Assembly (NCBI RefSeq): GCF_005503625.1
Contig: NZ_SCMX01000018.1
Coordinates: 1-64,000 of the forward strand
Direction: 5' to 3'
DNA: 64,000 nucleotides
DNA from: Cupriavidus sp. 2SB
GTDB lineage: Bacteria > Pseudomonadota > Gammaproteobacteria > Burkholderiales > Burkholderiaceae
Position numbers and translations under genes: made by a program
Shown: positions 8,772-35,104 of the stretch, piece after piece
Layout: each line of letters starts with the position of its first letter
Numbering within the stretch: the stretch's first letter is position 1
Notes under the pieces: model-generated
What the model saw: only the letters and a program-made list of their open reading frames with translations
The model's database searches: none
What the model was told of the DNA's origin: nothing

Positions 8772-8791
8772 ACTACGACAAAGGTCGTAGT
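8772..8791 (+). promoter_or_regulatory. Palindromic operator upstream of the GAF-PAS kinase gene
   Basis: A perfect inverted repeat, ACTACGAC-AAAG-GTCGTAGT, lies about 100 bases before the kinase start. A TATAGT box lies at 8814-8819 with no good -35 at the proper spacing. The palindrome would sit near -44, as for a class II activator. A very similar element precedes the giant kinase at 20222. A FixJ/NarL-type regulator is a reasonable ligand, by inference. Confidence 0.65.
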
Positions 8792-8813
8792 CCCATAGGC
8801 CCAAGCTCGCAGG

Positions 8814-8889: not shown

Positions 8890-10473
8890 ATGGAAAATCT
8901 GGATCTGGAGGCGACCATCGCCTGGACCCATGCAATTGGGTCCAACCTGAACGTGGAAGGGGTCGTGCGATCCTTTCTGCTGGCCGCCATGCAACGGTTT
9001 CGGGCACGGCAAGTGGGCATGTTCTTCTGCGACCCCGTTGGCGGACATTTCCTGCCGGAAGCCCGCATCTTGTCGGCAAACGGACAGGAGCGGCTCCCCA
9101 TTGGGGCCGACCGCCTCCCGCTGGCCTTGGCAAGCGACGTCCTCCAGACCACGCAAGGCTCGTCGCAGGTGGCTGTTCCCACCGATCCCTCGCTGGTTTG
9201 CCTGCCTGCCGAAACCGCCGGCAATGTCGTGGCGGTTGTGTTTGTCGATCGACCCAACGCACTGACACCGGCGGAGCAAGCCGAATTCCGTTTCCTCGCC
9301 TCGCTCGCTGCCACGTCGCTGCACAATGCCCGGGTCCACGAGGCGGCAGCGCGGCAATCGCATGTCCGCGAGGTGCTCAACACCAACATTCTCGGCATCG
9401 TCGTCTGGGAGCGCGGCGGCAGGATTCTGGAAGCCAACGAAGCCTTCATGAAGATCGTCGGCTATGCCGGCCATGAGAGTTCGTTGCCGGCTTCGCTGGA
9501 TGCCTTGACGCCCGACGAATGGAAGCCGGTCATTCGCAATCGGGAAGCGCAGTTCAGCGGTGGTGGCGTGCTTCCCCCCCTGGAACGCGAGTTCTTCCGC
9601 CGCGATGGCAGCCGCGCGCCGGTGCTGGTGACCGCCACGCGTCTCGATGAGGAATCGCTGCAACGCGTGACCTTCGTGCTGGACCTTTCGGAAAGAAGGC
9701 GAGCGGAAGAGGATCTTGAAAACGCCCGGGCCGAACTTGCCCACGTCTCCAAGGTCACCGCACTGACCGCGCTCGCAGGGTCGATCGCGCACGAGATCAA
9801 CCAGCCGCTCATGGCCATCGTGGCGTATGGCAGCGCGGCCATCCGCTGGCTGAACAAGGAAACGCCCAATGTCGATGAAGCGCGCGACTCCATCGAGCGC
9901 CTGGTGCTGGAAGGCCACCGCGCCGGCGCCATCATCCTGGGCATCCTCTCCCTCTTGAAGAAGCACGCGGAGAGAACGGAGCCGCTGGACCTGAATGCCC
10001 TCGTGAAAACCACGGTCCAGATCTTCCAGCCCGATGCCGTGCGGTCGAAAGTCCGCATCCAGCTCGACCTCGCCGCACAGCTTCCGCAGATCGTCGGCGA
10101 CAAGCTGCAGCTCCAGCAGTTGATCGGCAACCTGGTGGTGAATGGGCTGGAGGCCATGGCGGGCCTGACGCCCGACGCAAGGTTGCTTTCCATTTGCTCC
10201 GCGCAGCGGGGAGACTGGGTGGAGGTTTCCGTTCGCGATTCCGGCAAGGGGCTGGGCGCGGAAGCCACGGAGCGCATCTTCGAGCCGCTCTTCACCACCA
10301 AGGAGGAAGGACTCGGCATGGGGCTGAGCGTCTGCAAGCTGATTGTCGAGGCGCACGCCGGGCGACTGTGGGTCAGTCGCGACGAAGCCGGCCACACTGC
10401 TTTCCGGTTTGCCTTGCCGGTCATGTCGCCGCTGCATTTGCCCCCGATGACCGATACGGCATCGACGAAATAA
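8890..10473 (+). CDS. Soluble GAF-PAS sensor histidine kinase
   Basis: A 527-residue cytoplasmic kinase. An N-terminal GAF domain (about 5-150) is followed by a PAS domain (about 155-275, with NILGIVVWERGGRILEANEA). HisKA has His301 in AGSIAHEINQPLMAI, and the HATPase has DSGKGLG and GLGMGLSVCKLI. There is no membrane segment and no receiver. The kinase core resembles that of the giant hybrid at 20222 (shared IAHEINQPLM). The start at 8890 has a weak Shine-Dalgarno. A palindromic element and a TATAGT box lie upstream. The oxalate decarboxylase gene follows after about 115 bases on the same strand. Confidence 0.92.
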   Translation: MENLDLEATIAWTHAIGSNLNVEGVVRSFLLAAMQRFRARQVGMFFCDPVGGHFLPEARILSANGQERLPIGADRLPLALASDVLQTTQGSSQVAVPTDPSLVCLPAETAGNVVAVVFVDRPNALTPAEQAEFRFLASLAATSLHNARVHEAAARQSHVREVLNTNILGIVVWERGGRILEANEAFMKIVGYAGHESSLPASLDALTPDEWKPVIRNREAQFSGGGVLPPLEREFFRRDGSRAPVLVTATRLDEESLQRVTFVLDLSERRRAEEDLENARAELAHVSKVTALTALAGSIAHEINQPLMAIVAYGSAAIRWLNKETPNVDEARDSIERLVLEGHRAGAIILGILSLLKKHAERTEPLDLNALVKTTVQIFQPDAVRSKVRIQLDLAAQLPQIVGDKLQLQQLIGNLVVNGLEAMAGLTPDARLLSICSAQRGDWVEVSVRDSGKGLGAEATERIFEPLFTTKEEGLGMGLSVCKLIVEAHAGRLWVSRDEAGHTAFRFALPVMSPLHLPPMTDTASTK

Positions 10474-20068: not shown

Positions 20069-20088
20069 ACTACCACTTTGGTCGTAGT
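20069..20088 (+). promoter_or_regulatory. Palindromic operator upstream of the giant hybrid kinase
   Basis: ACTACCAC-TTTG-GTCGTAGT starts at the first base after the MFS stop codon and about 150 bases before the kinase start. It matches the element at 8772 in 16 of 20 positions, with an identical right arm. Both precede soluble kinases of the same family, so co-regulation is likely. Confidence 0.6.
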
Positions 20089-27698: not shown

Positions 27699-30395
27699 TC
27701 AGGCATGCAACGGGTTCGGCTTCTCCGGATCGATGCCGTACTTGCGAATGGCTTCCGATACGCGTTCGACAGGGAGGGTTCCCTCATCCGCAAGCGCCTT
27801 CAATGCGGCAACTGCGATCCACTGACGATCTACTTCGAAGAAATGCCGCAATGCCGCGCGTGTATCGGAGCGCCCAAAACCGTCGGTGCCCAGCACGATG
27901 AATTTCTGCGGCACATAGGCGCGGATCTGATCGGCCAGTGCACGGATATAGTCGGTCGCCACAACGACCGGTCCGCGCGCATCGTGGAGCAGTTGCGTCA
28001 CGTGCGGCACGCGGGGCGGCGCCTCGGGATGCAGCAGGTTGTGTCGTTCTGCCGCGCGGCCGTCGCGCGCAAGCTCCGTGAGTCCTGGCACCCCCCACAC
28101 GTCCGCAGCCACGCCCCAGTCCTGCTGGAGCAATGCGGCTGCCGCGATCACCTCATTGAAGATCGTGCCAGCACCCATCAACTGCACGCGCGGTACGGAT
28201 GGCGCGGCCTGCGACTTGCTGAACGCATACATGCCCTTGACGATATGCTGCGCCACGTCCGGTCCCTCCGGCATGACCGGCTGCGCATAGGATTCGTTCA
28301 TGACGGTGATGTAGTAGTAGACGTCTTCCTGCTCCTGCACCATCCGGCGCAAACCATCCTGCACGATCACGGCCAGTTCGTATGCGAACGACGGGTCGTA
28401 GCTGATGCAGTTCGGCACTGAGGACGCCCACAGCAACGAATGTCCATCCTCGTGCTGCAGGCCTTCGCCATTGATGGTGGTCCGTCCCGATATGCCTCCG
28501 AGCAGGAACCCTCGCGCGCGCATGTCGGCTGCTGCCCAGGCGAGATCGCCCACGCGCTGAAAGCCGAACATCGAATAGAAGATGTAGAACGGCACCATGG
28601 GTTCGCCATGCGTGGAATAGGACGTTGCCGCCGCGATCCAGTCCGCCATGCCGCCTGCCTCGTTGATGCCTTCCTGGAGGAACTGGCCAGTGGCCGACTC
28701 CCTGTAGGACGTCAGCGCGTCGGCATCCTGCGGGGTATAGCGCTGGCCGTCCTGATTCCAGATGCCGATCTGCCGGAAGAGCCCTTCCATGCCAAAGGTG
28801 CGCGACTCGTCCGGCACGATGGGCACGATGCGTTTGCCCAGTGCCTTGTCGCGCAGGAGCGTGCCAAGGATGCGTACGAAAGCCATGGTGGTCGACATGC
28901 CCCGCCCTTCGGGGGTGGCCTTGAGCAGCGCGTCGAAGGCCGACAGGTCGGGCACCGGCAACGATGCGGCTTTCTGCCGACGCGCAGGCAGGTAACCACC
29001 CAGCGACTGGCGACGTTCGCGCATGTACGTGAGCGCCTTCGATCCTTCAGGCAAGCTGACATACGGCACGTCCTCGATATCGGCATCGGCAACGGGCAGC
29101 GCGTATTTGTCGCGCAAGGCCAGCAGGGCCTCACGCTGCACCTTCTTCTGCTGATGATTGACGTTCGAGGCCTGCCCCTGGTCTCCCATGCCGTAGCCCT
29201 TGATCGTCTTGGCGAGAATCACGGTCGGCACGTCGCGGCTGCGCGCCGCCTCCGCGAATGCCGCGAACACCTTCTCGGGATCGTGGCCCCCGCGGTCCAG
29301 GCTCCACAGATCGTCGTCGGTGTAGTCGGCCACCAGCGCCTTCAGCGCCGGTGTATTGAAGAAATGCTCGCGCAGGTAGGCGCCGGACTTCGAACGGTAA
29401 GTCTGATATTCGCCATCGACCACTTCCATCATCCGTTGTGCCAGCGCCCCACTTGTGTCGCGTGCAAACAAGTCGTCCCAGCGACTGCCCCACAGCACCT
29501 TGATCACCCGCCATCCGGCCCCCAGGAAGATGCGTTCGAGCTCCTGCACGATCTTGCCGTTGCCACGCACGGGCCCGTCCAGGCGCTGAAGATTCGCATT
29601 GACCACGAACACGAGATTGCCCAGGCGTTCGCGGGCCGCCATGCCAATCGCGCCGAGAGATTCGGGCTCGTCCATTTCGCCGTCACCGAGGAAGACCCAC
29701 ACCTTCCTGTCGTCGGTCTTCGCAATGCCACGCGCCTGCAGGTACTTCATGAAGCGGGTCTGATAGATGGCCATCAACGGACCCAGTCCCATCGATACCG
29801 TGGGGAACTGCCAGAAGTCCGGCATCAGCCACGGGTGAGGATAGGAAGACAGCCCTTGCCCGCCCACCTCGCGCCGGTAGTTGTCGAGCTGCGCCACATC
29901 GAGCCGGCCCAGCAGGAACGCCCGCGCGTAGATGCCCGGCGACACATGGCCCTGTACGAAGATCAGATCGCCGCCGTGCTCCGGCGTGGGAGCGCGCCAG
30001 AAGTGATTGAAGCCCACGTCATAGAGCGTGGCTGCCGAAGCGAACGAAGCGATATGCCCGCCAACATTGGAAGTCTTCCCGGCGCGCACCACCATCGCCA
30101 TGGCATTCCACCGGGTATAGGCGCGAATGTGGCGCTCGAGCTCGCGGTCGCCCGGCATGCGGGGCTGCTGGTCGACGGGAATGGTGTTGACGTACGGCGT
30201 GCCGGCGGAATGCGGCTGCATCTGGCCGCGCAGGCGTGCATGCGCCATCTGCCGCTCAATCAGGTAGTGCGCACGGACGGGACCGACATTGCCAAGAACG
30301 CCGTCGAGCGCCTCCAGCCATTCCGCTGTTTCCTGCGGGTCGTCATCCCGAGGATCATTGGTGGTTGCGATGTGAACAAGTTGCGCGGCAGTCAT
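27699..30395 (-). CDS. aceE: Pyruvate dehydrogenase E1 component, homodimeric type, stand-alone
   Basis: An 898-residue thiamine-diphosphate enzyme of the AceE family (usual length about 885-900). The TPP motif runs from FLGDGEMDEPESLGAIG to VVNANLQRLDGPVRGNGK; the pyruvate-binding region includes YLREHFFN and GEGLQHEDGHSLL. It decarboxylates pyruvate for transfer to E2. No aceF or lpd lies nearby, so it is an extra copy that would need the E2/E3 of another locus. Start 30395 is set by AAGGAG upstream; in-frame extension to 30503 would run through the operator at 30441. That operator is shared with the NADH dehydrogenase and cupin operons, so this copy is probably stress-induced. Confidence 0.93.
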   Translation of the reverse strand: MTAAQLVHIATTNDPRDDDPQETAEWLEALDGVLGNVGPVRAHYLIERQMAHARLRGQMQPHSAGTPYVNTIPVDQQPRMPGDRELERHIRAYTRWNAMAMVVRAGKTSNVGGHIASFASAATLYDVGFNHFWRAPTPEHGGDLIFVQGHVSPGIYARAFLLGRLDVAQLDNYRREVGGQGLSSYPHPWLMPDFWQFPTVSMGLGPLMAIYQTRFMKYLQARGIAKTDDRKVWVFLGDGEMDEPESLGAIGMAARERLGNLVFVVNANLQRLDGPVRGNGKIVQELERIFLGAGWRVIKVLWGSRWDDLFARDTSGALAQRMMEVVDGEYQTYRSKSGAYLREHFFNTPALKALVADYTDDDLWSLDRGGHDPEKVFAAFAEAARSRDVPTVILAKTIKGYGMGDQGQASNVNHQQKKVQREALLALRDKYALPVADADIEDVPYVSLPEGSKALTYMRERRQSLGGYLPARRQKAASLPVPDLSAFDALLKATPEGRGMSTTMAFVRILGTLLRDKALGKRIVPIVPDESRTFGMEGLFRQIGIWNQDGQRYTPQDADALTSYRESATGQFLQEGINEAGGMADWIAAATSYSTHGEPMVPFYIFYSMFGFQRVGDLAWAAADMRARGFLLGGISGRTTINGEGLQHEDGHSLLWASSVPNCISYDPSFAYELAVIVQDGLRRMVQEQEDVYYYITVMNESYAQPVMPEGPDVAQHIVKGMYAFSKSQAAPSVPRVQLMGAGTIFNEVIAAAALLQQDWGVAADVWGVPGLTELARDGRAAERHNLLHPEAPPRVPHVTQLLHDARGPVVVATDYIRALADQIRAYVPQKFIVLGTDGFGRSDTRAALRHFFEVDRQWIAVAALKALADEGTLPVERVSEAIRKYGIDPEKPNPLHA

Positions 30396-30440
30396 GGCAG
30401 GTCTCCTTCGGTGCAATCCGATGAGAACAGTGTAGGCCAT

Positions 30441-30465
30441 AACTACGACTTGTACAGTCGGCGTT
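30441..30465 (-). promoter_or_regulatory. Shared 25-bp inverted-repeat operator, aceE site
   Basis: Left arm AACTACGACT, spacer TGTAC, right arm AGTCGGCGTT: 8 of 10 arm positions pair. It lies 46 bases upstream of aceE and covers the likely promoter. The same architecture occurs at 33365 and 33469. Confidence 0.65.
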
Positions 30466-30551
30466 ATTAGACGAATGCTTCGGGTGATCCGGGCATGGCT
30501 CATGAGAAGGGCCAGGCAAGGACCTTACGTCCGCGATGTCGCCTGCTGCGC

Positions 30552-31076
30552 TCAGGCGCGTGGGCAGAGCATGCCGAATGCATCCATCGGGCAATTTGCG
30601 CATGCGTCCTGATTGCACAGGCGGCATACGCTCATCGCCGACGTGGCATCGCTCGGCATGCTGACAAGCATCGTCTCCACCAGCCGCTCCAGCACCGCAC
30701 GATCCGTGGACGACACGTGGCCCAGTACCGACTCGATCGCGGCGCGGCGCCCTTCCAGGATGGTGGCCCGCTCCGTCTCGCCCGCCGCCGTCAGGTGCAG
30801 GGCGATGGCCCTGCGATCGCTTGCGGCGGGTGTGCGTTGAGCAAAGCCGGCTGCGACGAGCCTGTCCACCATACGCACCGCGCCAGGATGGCTCAACCCG
30901 GACACCTTGCCCAACTGATCGATGGACAATCCCGGCGCGTGGCCGATCACGATCAATGCGGCCGCCGCCTCGCCGCGCAACGATGTGCGGTGATCAACTT
31001 CTGCGTGAATCCGATCGGAAAGCCCTGTCGCCAGGGCACCGAGCATGTTTGCGAGTCGCAAAGGGTCCTTCTTCAT
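30552..31076 (-). CDS. MarR-family regulator with C-terminal cysteine cluster
   Basis: A 174-residue winged-helix regulator. The HTH region reads LSIDQLGKVSGLSHPGAVRMVDRLVAAGFAQR, followed by the wing PAASDRRAIALHLTAAG. The last ~25 residues hold five cysteines as C-x2-C-x4-C-x2-C-x8-C, suited to thiol sensing or metal/Fe-S binding. The start at 31076 has AAGGACAA upstream. A perfect 23-bp palindrome overlaps its -10 box, so autoregulation is likely. The divergent RclC-like gene is the probable target; aceE lies downstream on the same strand. Confidence 0.9.
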   Translation of the reverse strand: MKKDPLRLANMLGALATGLSDRIHAEVDHRTSLRGEAAAALIVIGHAPGLSIDQLGKVSGLSHPGAVRMVDRLVAAGFAQRTPAASDRRAIALHLTAAGETERATILEGRRAAIESVLGHVSSTDRAVLERLVETMLVSMPSDATSAMSVCRLCNQDACANCPMDAFGMLCPRA

Positions 31077-31106
31077 TTGTCCTTGCTCCGAGTAAAAGCG
31101 TATCCT

Positions 31107-31112
31107 ATTATA
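31107..31112 (-). promoter_or_regulatory. -10 box of the MarR gene
   Basis: On the minus strand this reads TATAAT, the full consensus, 31 bases upstream of the MarR start codon. A weak TTACAT lies 18 bases further upstream. The box lies at the edge of the palindrome at 31109. Confidence 0.6.
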
Positions 31113-31131
31113 TGCATGACTCATGCATATA
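31109..31131. promoter_or_regulatory. Perfect 23-bp palindrome, probable MarR operator
   Basis: Arms TATATGCATGA and TCATGCATATA flank a single central C. It lies between the divergent MarR and RclC-like genes and overlaps the MarR promoter. Length, symmetry and place match MarR operators. Confidence 0.8.
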
Positions 31132-31237
31132 TGTAAGAGTTTTTGTGATGAAGGTGCAACACCTTCGAAGTTGGTTGCTGGACAGCCTAGGCACTCAGCG
31201 ATTGACGTACATCCCTAATCTGTTCAGGAGCAACACC

Positions 31238-31729
31238 ATGCACTCGATGTCTTCCTTTGCCGCGACGCATCCCCAGGCAGCCGTTCACGACCGTACGGTC
31301 TTCCTGTTGCGCTGGTCTCTCGTGGTTGTCTTTCTCTGGTTCGGTGGAATGAAGTTCACCCTTTACGAAGCGCAAGGCATCGCGCCATTCATCGAGCACA
31401 GCCCGTTCATGAGCTGGTTGCACACTGCCTTTGGAATACGCGGTGCCAGCGCCGTCATCGGCACGCTGGAACTCGCAACAGCCGCCGCGCTGGCCGTTGG
31501 CGCCTTCCACCGGGGCGTTTCCGTATTGGGTGCCGCGATGTCCTGCGCCACCTACGCGATTACGTTGACGTTCTTTTTCACGACGCCTGGTGTCGCCGAG
31601 CCCACTGCCGGCGGATTCCCCGCCATTTCGGCGCCGATCGGTCAGTTCCTGTTGAAGGACCTCGTGCTGCTGGCTGCGTCTGTCGTGCTGCTGCAATCCT
31701 CCCTCGCGCACTGGAAAGCCCGCGCGTAA
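31238..31729 (+). CDS. DUF417/YkgB (RclC-like) inner-membrane protein
   Basis: A 163-residue protein with four hydrophobic helices. FLLRWSLVVVFLWFGGMKFTLYEAQGIAPFIEHSPFMSWL is the typical start of the DUF417 (YkgB) family; GQFLLKDLVLLAAS ends it. The E. coli relative RclC belongs to the reactive-chlorine resistance operon, so a role in oxidant defence is reasonable. AGGAG before the ATG at 31238 fixes the start. It is divergent from a thiol-rich MarR gene with a palindrome between, and is followed by a strong terminator at 31752. The molecular activity is unknown. Confidence 0.88.
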   Translation: MHSMSSFAATHPQAAVHDRTVFLLRWSLVVVFLWFGGMKFTLYEAQGIAPFIEHSPFMSWLHTAFGIRGASAVIGTLELATAAALAVGAFHRGVSVLGAAMSCATYAITLTFFFTTPGVAEPTAGGFPAISAPIGQFLLKDLVLLAASVVLLQSSLAHWKARA

Positions 31730-31751
31730 CGCCCGCACTTTCTCGATGACG

Positions 31752-31776
31752 ATGGCGCCTCACGGCGCCATTTTTG
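31752..31776 (+). terminator. Rho-independent terminator after the RclC-like gene
   Basis: ATGGCGCC, loop TCAC, GGCGCCAT form a perfect 8-bp stem followed by TTTTG. It begins 23 bases after the stop codon. Confidence 0.88.
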
Positions 31777-32019
31777 TTTGGCAATCTGCGTGAAATATTT
31801 CCCATATCAGCATGGGCGTGGAGTGTGCTCTGCACTGTCTGCTCTTCGCCGCGCGTACCGTGGAGGCGCTGCCCGCCGCGTATGGCTGCCCTGGTGGTGC
31901 AGGGGTTGGTTGAGCAATCGCGCGGCAGACCGGCGCAGTATCCGATGACGAAGCAGATAAAGAAGCAGATAAAGAAGCGGATGAAGGAGCGGATGAAGGA
32001 GCGGATGAAGGAGCCAAAC
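31777..32019. other. Gene-free stretch with a tandem repeat
   Basis: Between the terminators at 31752 and 32020 no coding region is convincing. The only distinct element is the 12-bp tandem repeat at 31951. Open frames across it encode only low-complexity Lys/Arg or Phe/Ile peptides. Confidence 0.5.
31951..32015. repeat. 12-bp minisatellite, five full units and one partial
   Basis: Two AAGCAGATAAAG units, one AAGCGGATGAAG and two GAGCGGATGAAG units run head to tail and end in a partial GAGCC. The array directly precedes the terminator of the NADH dehydrogenase gene. Copy number may vary between strains. Confidence 0.85.
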
Positions 32020-32051
32020 AAGAAGGGCGATCCCGGAGGATCGCCCTTCTT
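32020..32051 (-). terminator. Terminator of the NADH dehydrogenase gene
   Basis: A perfect 14-bp stem, AAGAAGGGCGATCC with its complement, and the loop CGGA. A/T-rich arm ends (AAGAA/TTCTT) make it usable in both directions. It lies 16 bases past the stop codon. Confidence 0.85.
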
Positions 32052-32067
32052 CTCTTCTTGCAGCCGA

Positions 32068-33279
32068 TCAGGCCACGACGATGCGCCGTGGGTCGGCCGA
32101 GGCCAGGGCCTCGGCGCGGTTCGCGCTAGGCGGGTAGATCCATTCCGTGTTGATCTTCGTTTTCAGCGCCTTGGCTTCGGCACCGGACAGCTTCACCTGA
32201 CGGTCCCAACCTTCGGTGTACACCGCGCCCCATGGGCCCAGGTCGAGGCACGTCACGTACTTCGGCTGGCTGTACGGGATCGGCGAGTGGCCCAGCAGGT
32301 CGGCTGCCACGTTGTGTCCCGCCGAGCGACCGAGGTTCATGGCGTGCTGGCAGGACATCATGGTCACGTTGCCTTCGTCGTCCGTGGCAGCACGGGCTAC
32401 GTCCCCTGTCGCGTAGACGTGCTCCACGCCATCCACCTTCAGATTGCGGTCAACATGAAGGCGGCCGAAATTGTCGCGCTGCGCGGGAATCTGGTCTGTC
32501 AGCGCACTGGCACGTGCACCGGCAGTCCAGATCACGGTGTTGGCATCGATGCGTTCCCCGCTCTCCAGCGTGACGCCGTTCGCGTCAACCGATGACACAC
32601 CGGAACCCAGCTTCCACGTCACGCCCAGTTCGGTCAGGGCCTCGGTAATCACCGGGCGCGGGCCTTGTCCCAGATCCGGGCCGATCTCGCCATTGCGCTC
32701 CACCAGAATGACACGCACTGTGGTGTCGGCACCCAGCACTTCACGCAACCGCGCCGGCATCTCGGCCGCCGTCTCGATACCGGTGAAACCAGCGCCGGCA
32801 ATGACCACGGTATTACGCGCGATGCTGTCGGGGCGGTCTGCCAGAGCGTGCAGATGCGCTTCCAGCCGCGAAGCATCTGCCACCTGATCGACATTGAAAG
32901 CATGCGCATCCAGGCCGTCGATGGCCGGGCGGAACAGCCGGCTGCCCGCGGCCAGCACGAGCCGGTCATAGTCCAGGGTCTGGTGCGACGTATCGGCGCC
33001 TACACCCTTCACTTCCACCTTGCGCGCTGCCACGTCGATGCGCTCGACAATGCCCTGCACGAAACGCACGCCAGTGGCGGCAAAGATCTCGAGCAGCGGC
33101 GCCTTCATCTTCAGCGGGTTCTGTTCATAGAGCCGAGGACGCACATGGAGCGCGGGTTCCGGCGCAACCAGCACGATTTCCACATCGGTGCGCGCGGCCT
33201 CGTCGAGCAGACGGGCCGAAGCAAGGGCGCTCCACATGCCGGCAAAGCCGGCGCCAATAACAAGAATGCGTTGGGACAT
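32068..33279 (-). CDS. ndh: Type II NADH dehydrogenase (NDH-2)
   Basis: A 403-residue FAD oxidoreductase that passes electrons from NADH to quinone without pumping protons. The FAD-binding GxGxxG is ILVIGAGFAGMWSA, the NADH-binding motif is VVIAGAGFTGIETAAE, and the second FAD motif is VYATGDVARA. LDLGPWGAVYTEGWDRQVKLSG follows as in the family. No strong C-terminal membrane helix is visible, so attachment to the membrane would be peripheral. A TTGCTC-N17-TACAAT promoter upstream contains the shared operator at 33365. Under stress it would keep NADH oxidised, fitting co-control with aceE. Confidence 0.92.
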   Translation of the reverse strand: MSQRILVIGAGFAGMWSALASARLLDEAARTDVEIVLVAPEPALHVRPRLYEQNPLKMKAPLLEIFAATGVRFVQGIVERIDVAARKVEVKGVGADTSHQTLDYDRLVLAAGSRLFRPAIDGLDAHAFNVDQVADASRLEAHLHALADRPDSIARNTVVIAGAGFTGIETAAEMPARLREVLGADTTVRVILVERNGEIGPDLGQGPRPVITEALTELGVTWKLGSGVSSVDANGVTLESGERIDANTVIWTAGARASALTDQIPAQRDNFGRLHVDRNLKVDGVEHVYATGDVARAATDDEGNVTMMSCQHAMNLGRSAGHNVAADLLGHSPIPYSQPKYVTCLDLGPWGAVYTEGWDRQVKLSGAEAKALKTKINTEWIYPPSANRAEALASADPRRIVVA

Positions 33280-33364
33280 CTCTACTGCTCCTGATTGGAT
33301 CTTTACTGCACTGACCAGCGGCGGCGCCGCCTGCGTCTCCGGGTCGCGTCATTCGCCGCGCCTT

Positions 33365-33389
33365 AACTACGATTGTATGAGTCGTAGTT
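33365..33389 (-). promoter_or_regulatory. Shared 25-bp inverted-repeat operator, ndh site
   Basis: AACTACGATT, spacer GTATG, AGTCGTAGTT: 9 of 10 arm positions pair, and an outer T-A pair extends the symmetry. It covers the -10 box and most of the spacer of the ndh promoter, which suggests repression. Confidence 0.75.
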
Positions 33390-33400
33390 AAGATGAGCAA
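33372..33400 (-). promoter_or_regulatory. ndh promoter
   Basis: On the minus strand TTGCTC (33400-33395) and TACAAT (33377-33372) are 17 bases apart, a good sigma-70 promoter. The start codon is at 33279, so the leader is about 85 bases. Confidence 0.6.
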
Positions 33401-33468
33401 GAAATTTTTGGAACGGGTTTAGCGACGCCATCCTCTACTTGCAGCATTCCGGCGGATCGACTATCTTT

Positions 33469-33493
33469 ATCTCCGACTACATTAGTCGTAGTA
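33469..33493 (+). promoter_or_regulatory. Shared 25-bp inverted-repeat operator, cupin operon site
   Basis: ATCTCCGACT, spacer ACATT, AGTCGTAGTA: the right arm matches the ndh site in 9 of 10 positions and the left arm matches the consensus in 8 of 10. A TACATT -10-like box lies inside it. It ends 17 bases before the first start codon of the operon. Confidence 0.65.
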
Positions 33494-33510: not shown

Positions 33511-33699
33511 ATGAGACGGTTTGGTTGGGTAGGCGTGCTGGGCACGTTGGCTGTACTGGCTACCGGCATCGCCACATGGGCGGCAGCCGACGGTGCGCTT
33601 GCGCCGCAGGGCGCGCATGGGGTGCTTCTGGGTGCGCAACATGCCGATGGCACGAATGCCGCCAGCCAGGCATCCGGGCCTCCCTATCCGGTGACCTGA
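33511..33699 (+). CDS. Small secreted or membrane-anchored protein
   Basis: A 62-residue protein that I do not recognise. Residues 1-26 look like a signal peptide or single membrane helix (RRFGWVGVLGTLAVLATGIATWAAA). The rest is small, Ala/Gly/His-rich and has no cysteine. GGAG before the ATG at 33511 and the operator just upstream make it the first gene of the cupin-AhpD operon; an in-frame Met at 33439 would lie upstream of the operator and promoter. Real expression is likely from context; function is unknown. Confidence 0.6.
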   Translation: MRRFGWVGVLGTLAVLATGIATWAAADGALAPQGAHGVLLGAQHADGTNAASQASGPPYPVT

Positions 33700-33731: not shown

Positions 33732-34163
33732 ATGAAAATTGTTTCCTCACGCATGCTGGCGCCGTTATTCATGGCGGCCGGCCTCATGCTTGCCGGCGGT
33801 GCGATGGCACATGGCACCGGCGAGACCGTCACACCAAATTTCTCACGCGCCATTCCCAATATCCCGGGCAAAACGCTGATCGCGGTAGAGGTGAACTATG
33901 CGCCGGGTGGCGCATCACACCCGCACCGGCACGCCGGGTCTGCATTCATCTATGCCTACGTCGTTTCGGGCAGCATCGTCAGCAAGGTCAACGATGGCCC
34001 CGAACGCGTGTACAAGGCGGGTGAGAGTTTCCACGAAGACCCGGGCTCGACCCATCCGGTCAGCCGGAATGCCAGCAAGACCCAACCCGCGAAGCTGCTG
34101 GCCGTTTTCGTGGCCGATACCACGGACACCGAACTCACCACCAACCTTGGCACCAAGAACTGA
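33732..34163 (+). CDS. Secreted small cupin protein
   Basis: A 143-residue single-cupin protein. Residues 1-24 form a signal peptide (MLAPLFMAAGLMLAGGAMAHG). The cupin core shows YAPGGASHPHRHAGSAFIYAYVVSG, with the H-x-H type metal site, then YKAGESFHEDPGSTHPVSRNAS. It probably binds a metal in the periplasm; no reaction can be assigned. ATG 33732 is chosen over 33720 because GGAG lies six bases upstream. It is followed after two bases by the AhpD-like gene, so the two are coupled. It resembles the cupin at 34667 in plan. Confidence 0.88.
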   Translation: MKIVSSRMLAPLFMAAGLMLAGGAMAHGTGETVTPNFSRAIPNIPGKTLIAVEVNYAPGGASHPHRHAGSAFIYAYVVSGSIVSKVNDGPERVYKAGESFHEDPGSTHPVSRNASKTQPAKLLAVFVADTTDTELTTNLGTKN

Positions 34164-34165
34164 TC

Positions 34166-34609
34166 ATGCGTATCGACTACACCCAAACCTCTCCAGCCGG
34201 CGTCAAGGCGCTCGGCACGGTCTACGGCTACATCACCCAGTCCGGGCTCGACGCCGTGCTGGTGGAACTGACCTACCTGCGCATCAGCCAGATCAACGGT
34301 TGCGCGTACTGCCTGGACATGCACACGCGCGAACTCACACGCAAGGGTGTTGACGTGCAGAAGCTCGCACTGGTGCAGGTCTGGCATGAAGCCGGGAATC
34401 TGTTCACCGAGCGCGAGAAGGCCGCGCTGGCCTGGGCGGAAACCGTGACACGCGTCGCCGATACCCACGTGCCCGACGAAGCGTTTGCAGCGGCCGCCGC
34501 GATCTTCGAAGAGAAGGAACTGGCAGACCTGACCATCGCGATCGGCCTGATGAACGCGTTCAATCGTCTCGCCATCAGCTTCCGGCGTGCGCCAGCGCAA
34601 GCCGTGTAA
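34166..34609 (+). CDS. Carboxymuconolactone decarboxylase/AhpD-family protein
   Basis: A 147-residue member of the CMD/AhpD family. The active-site region reads INGCAYCLDMHTREL, the C-x2-C plus His pattern of AhpD-like thiol peroxidase reductants. LTYLRISQ before it and ALMNAF-like NRLAISF after it match the family. It likely reduces hydroperoxides or supports a peroxidase. Starts two bases after the cupin stop codon. The operon is under the operator at 33469. Confidence 0.92.
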   Translation: MRIDYTQTSPAGVKALGTVYGYITQSGLDAVLVELTYLRISQINGCAYCLDMHTRELTRKGVDVQKLALVQVWHEAGNLFTEREKAALAWAETVTRVADTHVPDEAFAAAAAIFEEKELADLTIAIGLMNAFNRLAISFRRAPAQAV

Positions 34610-34666: not shown

Positions 34667-35062
34667 TTACTTTGACGGCGTTGCCAGCGGCGCGCCCTTC
34701 TTCACGATGTACGTCGCCAGCTCCGACGATTTGCCGCTCCCCACGTTGCGGGCGGAATGTGCCATGCCCGCGGGAATGAACAGCGCCTGACCGGCCTTGA
34801 GCGTCACGGGCGGACTATCACCAAGCTGGTACTCCAGCGTGCCCTCCAGCACGTAAGCGATTTCCTCGCCCGGATGGGCGTGTTTGGGTGCAAACGCGCC
34901 AGGTTCAAAGTCCACGCGGACCTGCACCCCTTCGAGATGCGGCGTGCTCAAATCGTGCTTGACCAGATCCGTGCGATGGATGCCAGGCGCCTGCGCCTGG
35001 GCGGTCGAGAACGCCATCGCGCCAGTGACCGCAAGCGCTGCAAGTGAGAGAGTCTTGTTCAT
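34667..35062 (-). CDS. Secreted small cupin protein
   Basis: A 131-residue protein with a signal peptide (1-23, ending TAQAQA). The cupin motif reads FEPGAFAPKHAHPGEEIAYVLEGTLEY, then LKAGQALFIPAGMAHSARN; the HxH, Glu and distal His ligands are present. A metal-dependent periplasmic role is expected but the substrate is unknown. TTGGAG before the ATG at 35062 fixes the start. It lies downstream of ohr on the same strand after about 40 bases, so co-transcription is likely. Confidence 0.88.
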   Translation of the reverse strand: MNKTLSLAALAVTGAMAFSTAQAQAPGIHRTDLVKHDLSTPHLEGVQVRVDFEPGAFAPKHAHPGEEIAYVLEGTLEYQLGDSPPVTLKAGQALFIPAGMAHSARNVGSGKSSELATYIVKKGAPLATPSK

Positions 35063-35104
35063 GATGGTCTCCAATGGATGGGATATGCGATGCGGTGCCA
35101 CAGG

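Follow-up and report, generated by a model that had tools for sequence, protein, structure and literature searches.

An Rrf2-family, RsrR-like regulator as the probable partner of a 25-bp operator at NDH-2, cupin/AhpD and pyruvate dehydrogenase E1 genes of Cupriavidus

Background

The closest described counterpart of the system considered here is RsrR of Streptomyces venezuelae, an Rrf2-family [2Fe-2S] redox switch whose cluster ligands are E8, H12, C90 and C110 and whose switch residue is W9, as given in PMC9218516. According to PMC5015018, RsrR with an oxidised cluster binds DNA, and the reduced form does so weakly; nuo and a quinone oxidoreductase are among the class 1 targets. Of its direct targets in Streptomyces, only the divergent gene changed significantly on deletion under the conditions used. 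Other relatives are tied to redox and electrophile stress as repressors, namely SifR of Streptococcus pneumoniae, a quinone sensor that acts through one cysteine, and HypR of Staphylococcus aureus, a sensor of HOCl, with the operator TGTAA-N9-TTACA (PMC9218516). In this study, we analyse a stretch of 64,000 nucleotides from Cupriavidus sp. 2SB (contig NZ_SCMX01000018.1, positions 1 to 64,000; hereafter the window), in which three promoters carry a common 25-bp inverted repeat. We consider it likely that these repeats serve as operators for a single RsrR-like repressor of the Rrf2 family, whose gene lies elsewhere in the genome. This repressor would also repress its own gene through a fourth operator, and it probably senses through a [2Fe-2S] cluster.

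Results and Discussion

Three sites of common sequence in the window

A preliminary description of the window had noticed three repeats of like sequence and 10-5-10 layout, at promoters that it ascribed to a pyruvate dehydrogenase (PDH) E1 gene, a type II NADH dehydrogenase (NDH-2) gene and a cupin/AhpD operon, and had proposed one operator and one regulon. Searching both strands of the window with AACTACGAYT-N5-AGTCGTAGTT and allowing up to 3 mismatches, we recovered only these three places (30441-30465, 33365-33389 and 33469-33493; six strand-matches), and each of 100 shuffled windows gave 0 matches. What is special about the three sites is their common sequence, since palindromy alone is not unusual: the window holds 9 palindromes of 10-5-10 layout in which no more than one of the 10 arm pairs fails to match, where 10 Markov samples average 4.7, and these include the site at 33365 and exclude those at 30441 and 33469. 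Two 8-4-8 palindromes at 8773 and 20069 were rejected as further operator copies because their spacing differs. They represent a different palindrome, ACTACGAC-N4-GTCGTAGT-like and with similar arms (8773-8792 and 20069-20088), upstream of open reading frames that start near 8890 and 20223.

A fourth site in front of an Rrf2-family gene

For the genome-wide search, 56 sites taken from other genomes of the genus served to train a matrix (R1), the loci of the own genome being excluded; the columns just outside the search pattern are also biased in these training sites. The first look at the own genome scored 150 of 554 candidates, and the other genome scans likewise scored 150 candidates each. 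Within 6.98 Mb, R1 at E<=10 finds four places only, the three window sites and one on another contig, and the pattern scan (<=3 mismatches) likewise adds a single site (C119:10351-10375). The preliminary description had asked for such a scan, and to the extent that sequence can tell, the regulon is a real one. It had also remarked that the same matrix upstream of a regulator gene would identify the regulator, and the fourth operator ends 5 bp before the ATG of a gene for a 173-aa protein (G000:C119:10381-10902). This protein belongs to the Rrf2 family (PF02082, 114 bits, cut-off 30; TIGR00738, 101.4 bits, cut-off 73.3) rather than to the MarR, HxlR or LysR classes that had been put forward. 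Four Rrf2 genes in the own genome exceed the Pfam cut-off, and the one on C119 is the only one at an operator.

The OYE gene divergent from rrf2 is kept as a candidate and was rejected as a firm target, the arrangement being found in 2 genomes only and with no overlap of the OYE promoter shown. Second Rrf2 copies occur in four genomes of the genus (G004:C6, G005:C2, G007:C3 and G017:C13), some reported with an in-frame stop, and the one in G004 adjoins further operator sites.

Regulator, operator and targets within the genus

We surveyed 60 genomes including the own one (36 of the genus and 24 others) for the operator at <=2 mismatches, and found it in 17 of the 36 and in 0 of the 24; summed over the 36 genus genomes there are 61 sites, versus 12 for a reversed control pattern. 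An orthologue of the Rrf2 protein (E<1e-70) is encoded by 18 of 40 genus genomes, and among the 36 genomes common to both surveys these are the same 17 that carry the operator, with neither found in the remaining 19 (Fisher p 1.2e-10, uncorrected for ancestry). In 18 of the 19 regulator-less genomes (the 54%-complete G011 left out) R1 has no match at E<=1 and a close NDH-2 orthologue is absent, six of them having relatives of 47-60% identity without an R1 match at E<=1. The best E1 in those 18 genomes is 69-71% identical to the aceE-like protein of the window, which is the level of the own genome's second E1. Because the 18 genomes without the regulator also lack the site, a close NDH-2 and a close aceE-like orthologue, regulator, site and target orthologues are present or absent as a set in the genus, as judged from these assemblies.

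Among the 18 regulator-bearing Cupriavidus genomes, the operator (<=3 mismatches) precedes the NDH-2 gene in all 18 and the cupin gene in 8; for the aceE-like gene it was scored by script in 6 genomes, to which the own genome is added (the script start is called too early there). At rrf2 itself the script scored a site in 14 of 18, the misses being a miscalled start (G000), an rrf2 contig outside the loci (G025) and sites with 5 mismatches (G012 and G035). Whether the cupin gene faces NDH-2 or the aceE-like gene varies between genomes (for example L058 versus L064), and each retains its operator. Regulator and sites are also present in C. metallidurans CH34.

Distribution beyond the genus

Most of the 19 rrf2 upstream regions from the genus (one of them a second copy) show a CTTGC...TATAGG/C promoter, then the operator, then the start codon. 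Across 79 named homologues, a set that is not independent of ancestry and includes strains also among the surveyed genomes (L115 excluded because it has no upstream DNA), 75 have a site with <=6 mismatches within 30 bp of the start, and in 70 of these it stands at 4-6 bp; of 3950 windows drawn at random from these loci, 1.2% have such a site. The NDH-2 gene has the operator (<=3 mismatches) in 41 of the 47 named-homologue loci that hold one. Other genes behind the site are those for an AzoR-type flavodoxin-fold reductase (7 of 10 loci holding a relative), a YbfB-type MFS transporter (7/9) and a MexE-like RND efflux adaptor, where the operator stands about 200 bp upstream with 0-2 mismatches in four Cupriavidus genomes (L057, L062, L073 and L077; adaptors 93-100% identical to each other). 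Aldehyde dehydrogenase was rejected as a firm target, for its sites, found in 4/4 close relatives (L083, L087, L088 and L105, with L087 and L105 on the same contig), each have 3 mismatches. In Caballeronia and Pseudomonas the right arm of the operator, read by eye, is GTCGGAG, which could double as a Shine-Dalgarno sequence.

The pairing of operator and regulator reaches Burkholderia relatives, Duganella, Pseudomonas, Psychrobacter, Klebsiella and Sinorhizobium, and the Rrf2 and NDH-2 genes are adjacent in Duganella, Pseudomonas, Klebsiella and Escherichia albertii. A tblastn search of a plasmid collection gave 59 records at E<=1e-30, and we examined 13 of them. The Rrf2 gene adjoins relatives of the window's NDH-2 (49-57% identity) in Klebsiella, E. 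albertii, Pseudomonas sp. ANT_J4 and Novosphingobium, and cupin or cupin/carboxymuconolactone decarboxylase (CMD) genes in two Sinorhizobium records, Azospirillum and Komagataeibacter; in Psychrobacter it lies beside a reductase distantly related to AzoR, and in Agrobacterium and Shinella a cupin gene is a few genes away. Sphingopyxis, among these 13 regions, has no NDH-2, cupin/CMD or AzoR relative adjacent to its Rrf2 gene. The gene of Klebsiella aerogenes NCTC10006 is labelled 'Predicted transcriptional regulator of NADH dehydrogenase, Rrf2 family'. The arrangement is alike, in that the genes for the Rrf2 protein and for an NADH dehydrogenase (52% identical to the window NDH-2) diverge from an intergenic region that holds an R1 match, but the Klebsiella case is known as an annotation label only; the label suggests that annotators had noticed this neighbourhood.

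In six alphaproteobacteria, AACGCGGACT-N5-AGTCCGCGTT-like repeats precede the Rrf2 gene, five directly at the ATG and that of Azospirillum about 25 bp away (by eye). Residue 49 of the recognition helix is T in 11/11 regulators with TACGACT-like (or variant) half-sites and P in 6/6 with AACGCGGACT-like ones, the half-sites being classed by eye and the E. albertii repeat being the least certain. As far as these alignments go, operator and residue 49 thus change together in the six alphaproteobacteria.

Operators and predicted promoters

All promoter elements given here are predictions read from the sequence. The preliminary description had placed the NDH-2 site over a TTGCTC-N17-TACAAT promoter, and this promoter holds, recurring in relatives with CTTGC in the -35 region and a TANAAT-like -10 in the operator centre. 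It had also read TACAAG and TACATT in the other two copies; these letters are present, but as -10 boxes they are replaced by elements that relatives have in common. At the aceE-like gene, a TAYACT or TAGACT -10 is found in 7/7 promoters with the operator (own and six relatives), and the operator centre reads as the -35 (TGTACA, TTGAAA, TTGATA or TAGACA), 16 nt before it. At the cupin and rrf2 promoters the operator lies directly downstream of the -10, in the window 1 nt past TATCTT. Because the operators overlap the -10 (NDH-2), the -35 (aceE-like gene) or the start-site region (cupin and rrf2), their positions are best read as repression by steric block.

Comparison with RsrR and other Rrf2 proteins

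By sequence, RsrR (PDB 6hsd and 6y42) is the best PDB match to the regulator (2.7e-27), and when the C. campinensis orthologue was modelled (pLDDT 84.5, pTM 0.78) and compared by fold, RsrR filled all of the first 11 ranks. The RsrR ligands align to E9, H13, C94 and C117, which are kept in 81/81 near homologues and in 17/17 of a more diverse set (four shared with the 81). The two proteins are alike in fold, in the four ligands and in having NADH dehydrogenase or quinone-reductase targets. Going by the description of the Streptomyces site, the operators agree in their 25-bp span and in their position at the own promoter and differ in layout. Judged by operator position, the targets here belong to NAD(P)H metabolism, as for RsrR-type regulators, but they differ in kind (NDH-2, cupin/AhpD, PDH E1) and in number, with 630 ChIP-exo sites for RsrR and four sites in this genome. 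Because the Trp switch of RsrR is not conserved, we class the regulator as an RsrR-like variant and not as a member of the type.

IscR and NsrR have the Rrf2 fold in common with the regulator but are weaker matches than RsrR by sequence and by fold. The cysteines here form C94-X22-C117 (C101 and H120 are not invariant), unlike the C-X5-C-X5-C-X2-H of IscR and NsrR, a motif that the regulator lacks in our alignments, and the equivalog scores fall below their cut-offs (46.9 versus 207.55 for IscR; 49.8 bits versus 182 for NsrR). The targets found are not genes of iron-sulphur (Fe-S) assembly or nitric oxide detoxification, unlike those of IscR and NsrR, and the operator is also unlike that of SifR and HypR.

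A redox-gated repressor is suggested by the similarity to RsrR, the conserved ligands and the redox-dependent DNA binding of RsrR. A dimer on the 25-bp site would block RNA polymerase at the promoter elements named above, and a [2Fe-2S] cluster would probably bridge the dimer on C94, C117, E9' and H13'. Reduction of the cluster, or its loss through redox-cycling quinones or other electrophiles, would then release the DNA and switch on NDH-2 (re-oxidising NADH), the cupin and AhpD proteins and the alternative PDH E1; in relatives, an efflux pump and a reductase of the AzoR type would be induced as well. We infer that the protein binds directly, that it represses rather than activates, that it has a cluster and what its inducer is; the natural trigger may be reduction, cluster loss or thiol modification. 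The preliminary description had coupled the regulon to peroxide defence, a coupling that finds no support here; the targets, with the genes behind the site in relatives, fit NADH re-oxidation and the handling of quinones and electrophiles better.

Alternative explanations

Several observations weigh against the proposed RsrR-like repressor. W9 of RsrR is replaced by Tyr10 in 81/81 near homologues, and the RsrR site is described as 11-3-11 (PMC5015018), here 10-5-10. Four of the 79 rrf2 upstream regions have no site at <=6 mismatches (L118, L160, L163 and L165), and 6 of the 47 NDH-2 loci have none at <=3 (L109, L152, L158, L160, L164 and L165), some of which may be miscalled starts. R1 matches at E<=0.01 in only 7 of the 13 plasmid-collection regions (L180, L181, L182, L184, L186, L187 and L189), and in L186 the match is behind the Rrf2 gene, not in front. 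Added PDH E1 would raise NADH, a poor fit with a pure response to NADH overload; we can only speculate that the E1 paralogue replaces a stress-damaged E1. The pairing of operator and regulator, the site at its own promoter, the overlap with promoters and the conservation of the ligands can be read from the DNA itself.

Among other accounts, the one to be taken most seriously, though we think it doubtful, keeps the Rrf2 protein as the regulator and makes it a cluster-free thiol sensor that leaves the DNA when electrophiles modify C94, C117 or C14. SifR, with its single reactive cysteine, sets the precedent (PMC9218516), C14, C94 and C117 are present in 81/81 near homologues, and the genes behind the site in relatives resemble electrophile and quinone detoxification; yet the conservation of E9 and H13, cluster ligands in RsrR, equals that of C94 and C117 although a simple thiol switch could do without them, and C14 is Ser in the homologues of E. 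albertii, Klebsiella and Komagataeibacter. It is improbable that the protein activates some promoters instead of being a pure repressor, as might be thought from the suggestion of the RsrR authors that RsrR likely does both (PMC5015018), for each operator covers the -10 or the -35 or follows immediately after the -10, whereas the usual position of an activator is upstream of the -35, and at E<=10 the R1 scan of the own genome gives nothing beyond the four places. Least of all do we expect another factor, the window's MarR or one as yet unrecognised, to bind the repeats with the Rrf2 gene merely a target. A MarR gene does lie between the sites, and having an operator might mean no more for a regulator gene than that it is a target; however, across genera the operator is constantly accompanied by the Rrf2 gene, which is absent from genus genomes without the operator, residue 49 of the recognition helix varies with the operator, and of the 1160 genes called around the sites, 3 are relatives of the MarR, counting the one in the window. 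The preliminary description had already doubted the MarR gene as regulator, and rightly so, its promoter having a different palindrome at 31108-31132. That palindrome, TTATATGCATGACTCATGCATATAT, is one of the nine of 10-5-10 layout counted in the window; it lies between the divergent MarR and DUF417 (RclC-like) genes and is perhaps a MarR operator.

Target genes in the window

Family matches uphold the gene identities given by the preliminary description (Table 1).

Table 1. Predicted operators, promoter elements and target genes in the window
Feature	Position	Strand	Basis or remark
aceE-like pyruvate dehydrogenase E1	27699..30395	-	TIGR00759, 1466 bits, cut-off 860
-10-like box TACACT of aceE-like gene	30429..30434	-	16 nt from -35
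Operator O1 of aceE-like gene	30441..30465	-	pattern and R1 matrix match; centre holds -35-like TGTACA 30451-30456
Type II NADH dehydrogenase (NDH-2-like flavoprotein)	32068..33279	-	Pyr_redox_2 PF07992
Operator O2 of NDH-2	33365..33389	-	centre holds -10 TACAAT 33372-33377; -35 TTGCTC 33395-33400
Operator O3 of peptide/cupin/AhpD operon	33469..33493	+	after -35 TTGCAG 33439-33444 and -10 TATCTT 33462-33467
P0002, 62-aa small protein	33511..33699	+	signal-peptide-like start (by eye); between O3 and cupin gene
Cupin_2 protein	33732..34163	+	Pfam match
AhpD/carboxymuconolactone decarboxylase-like protein	34166..34609	+	AhpD/CMD match

The own genome has three E1 homologues, of which the aceE-like gene is one, and the second E1 is 69% identical to its product. 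The H16 gene pdhA2 is said to be barely expressed (PMC3734047, PMC8591527); it is at most a candidate orthologue of the aceE-like gene. The flavoprotein is assigned to the NDH-2 type by its two-Rossmann fold family and its closest solved relatives, all NDH-2 enzymes (4nwz, 3e-27; YjlD; SAOUHSC_00878). Between the aceE-like and NDH-2 genes there is a 12-bp tandem repeat at 31937-32008 (five overlapping 24-nt copies), followed by a perfect 14-bp hairpin at 32020-32051. The AhpD-like protein is 71% identical to the CMD protein near the Rrf2 gene of Sinorhizobium fredii. Convergent with its gene is a second cupin gene (34667-35101), with no operator match nearby.

Relatives of P0002 stand 3' of the same operator in other Cupriavidus; NCBIfam has no match for P0002 and two relatives, and Pfam none for the two relatives (P0002 was outside the Pfam scan). 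Such proteins, 62-124 aa as called and likewise with a signal-peptide-like start, follow the operator in L053, L064, L066, L067, L069, L074, L078, L081 and L085. An AG-D-GVSA motif occurs in several of them, in some cases more than once, and many have ASxASGPP at the C-terminus.

Conclusions

The open-access literature gave us no description of this regulon and no paper with both 'regulator of NADH dehydrogenase' and 'Rrf2 family' (subscription papers were not covered). We see an even chance that the Proteobacteria hold a widespread and undescribed branch of RsrR-like Fe-S switches, with Tyr in place of Trp, whose conserved core task would be to induce an auxiliary NDH-2 and its AzoR, cupin and AhpD partners once the cluster becomes reduced or redox-cycling electrophiles destroy it. 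This branch would act as a dedicated valve for NADH redox poise in Burkholderiales, Pseudomonas, Klebsiella and rhizobia, and would have been extended in Cupriavidus to a spare PDH E1. An orphan palindrome hence becomes a triple of regulator, operator and regulon that is testable in tractable bacteria such as C. metallidurans CH34. The RsrR-like regulators gain a small regulon with a clear promoter logic, and the conditions under which bacteria induce an auxiliary NDH-2 gain a possible explanation.

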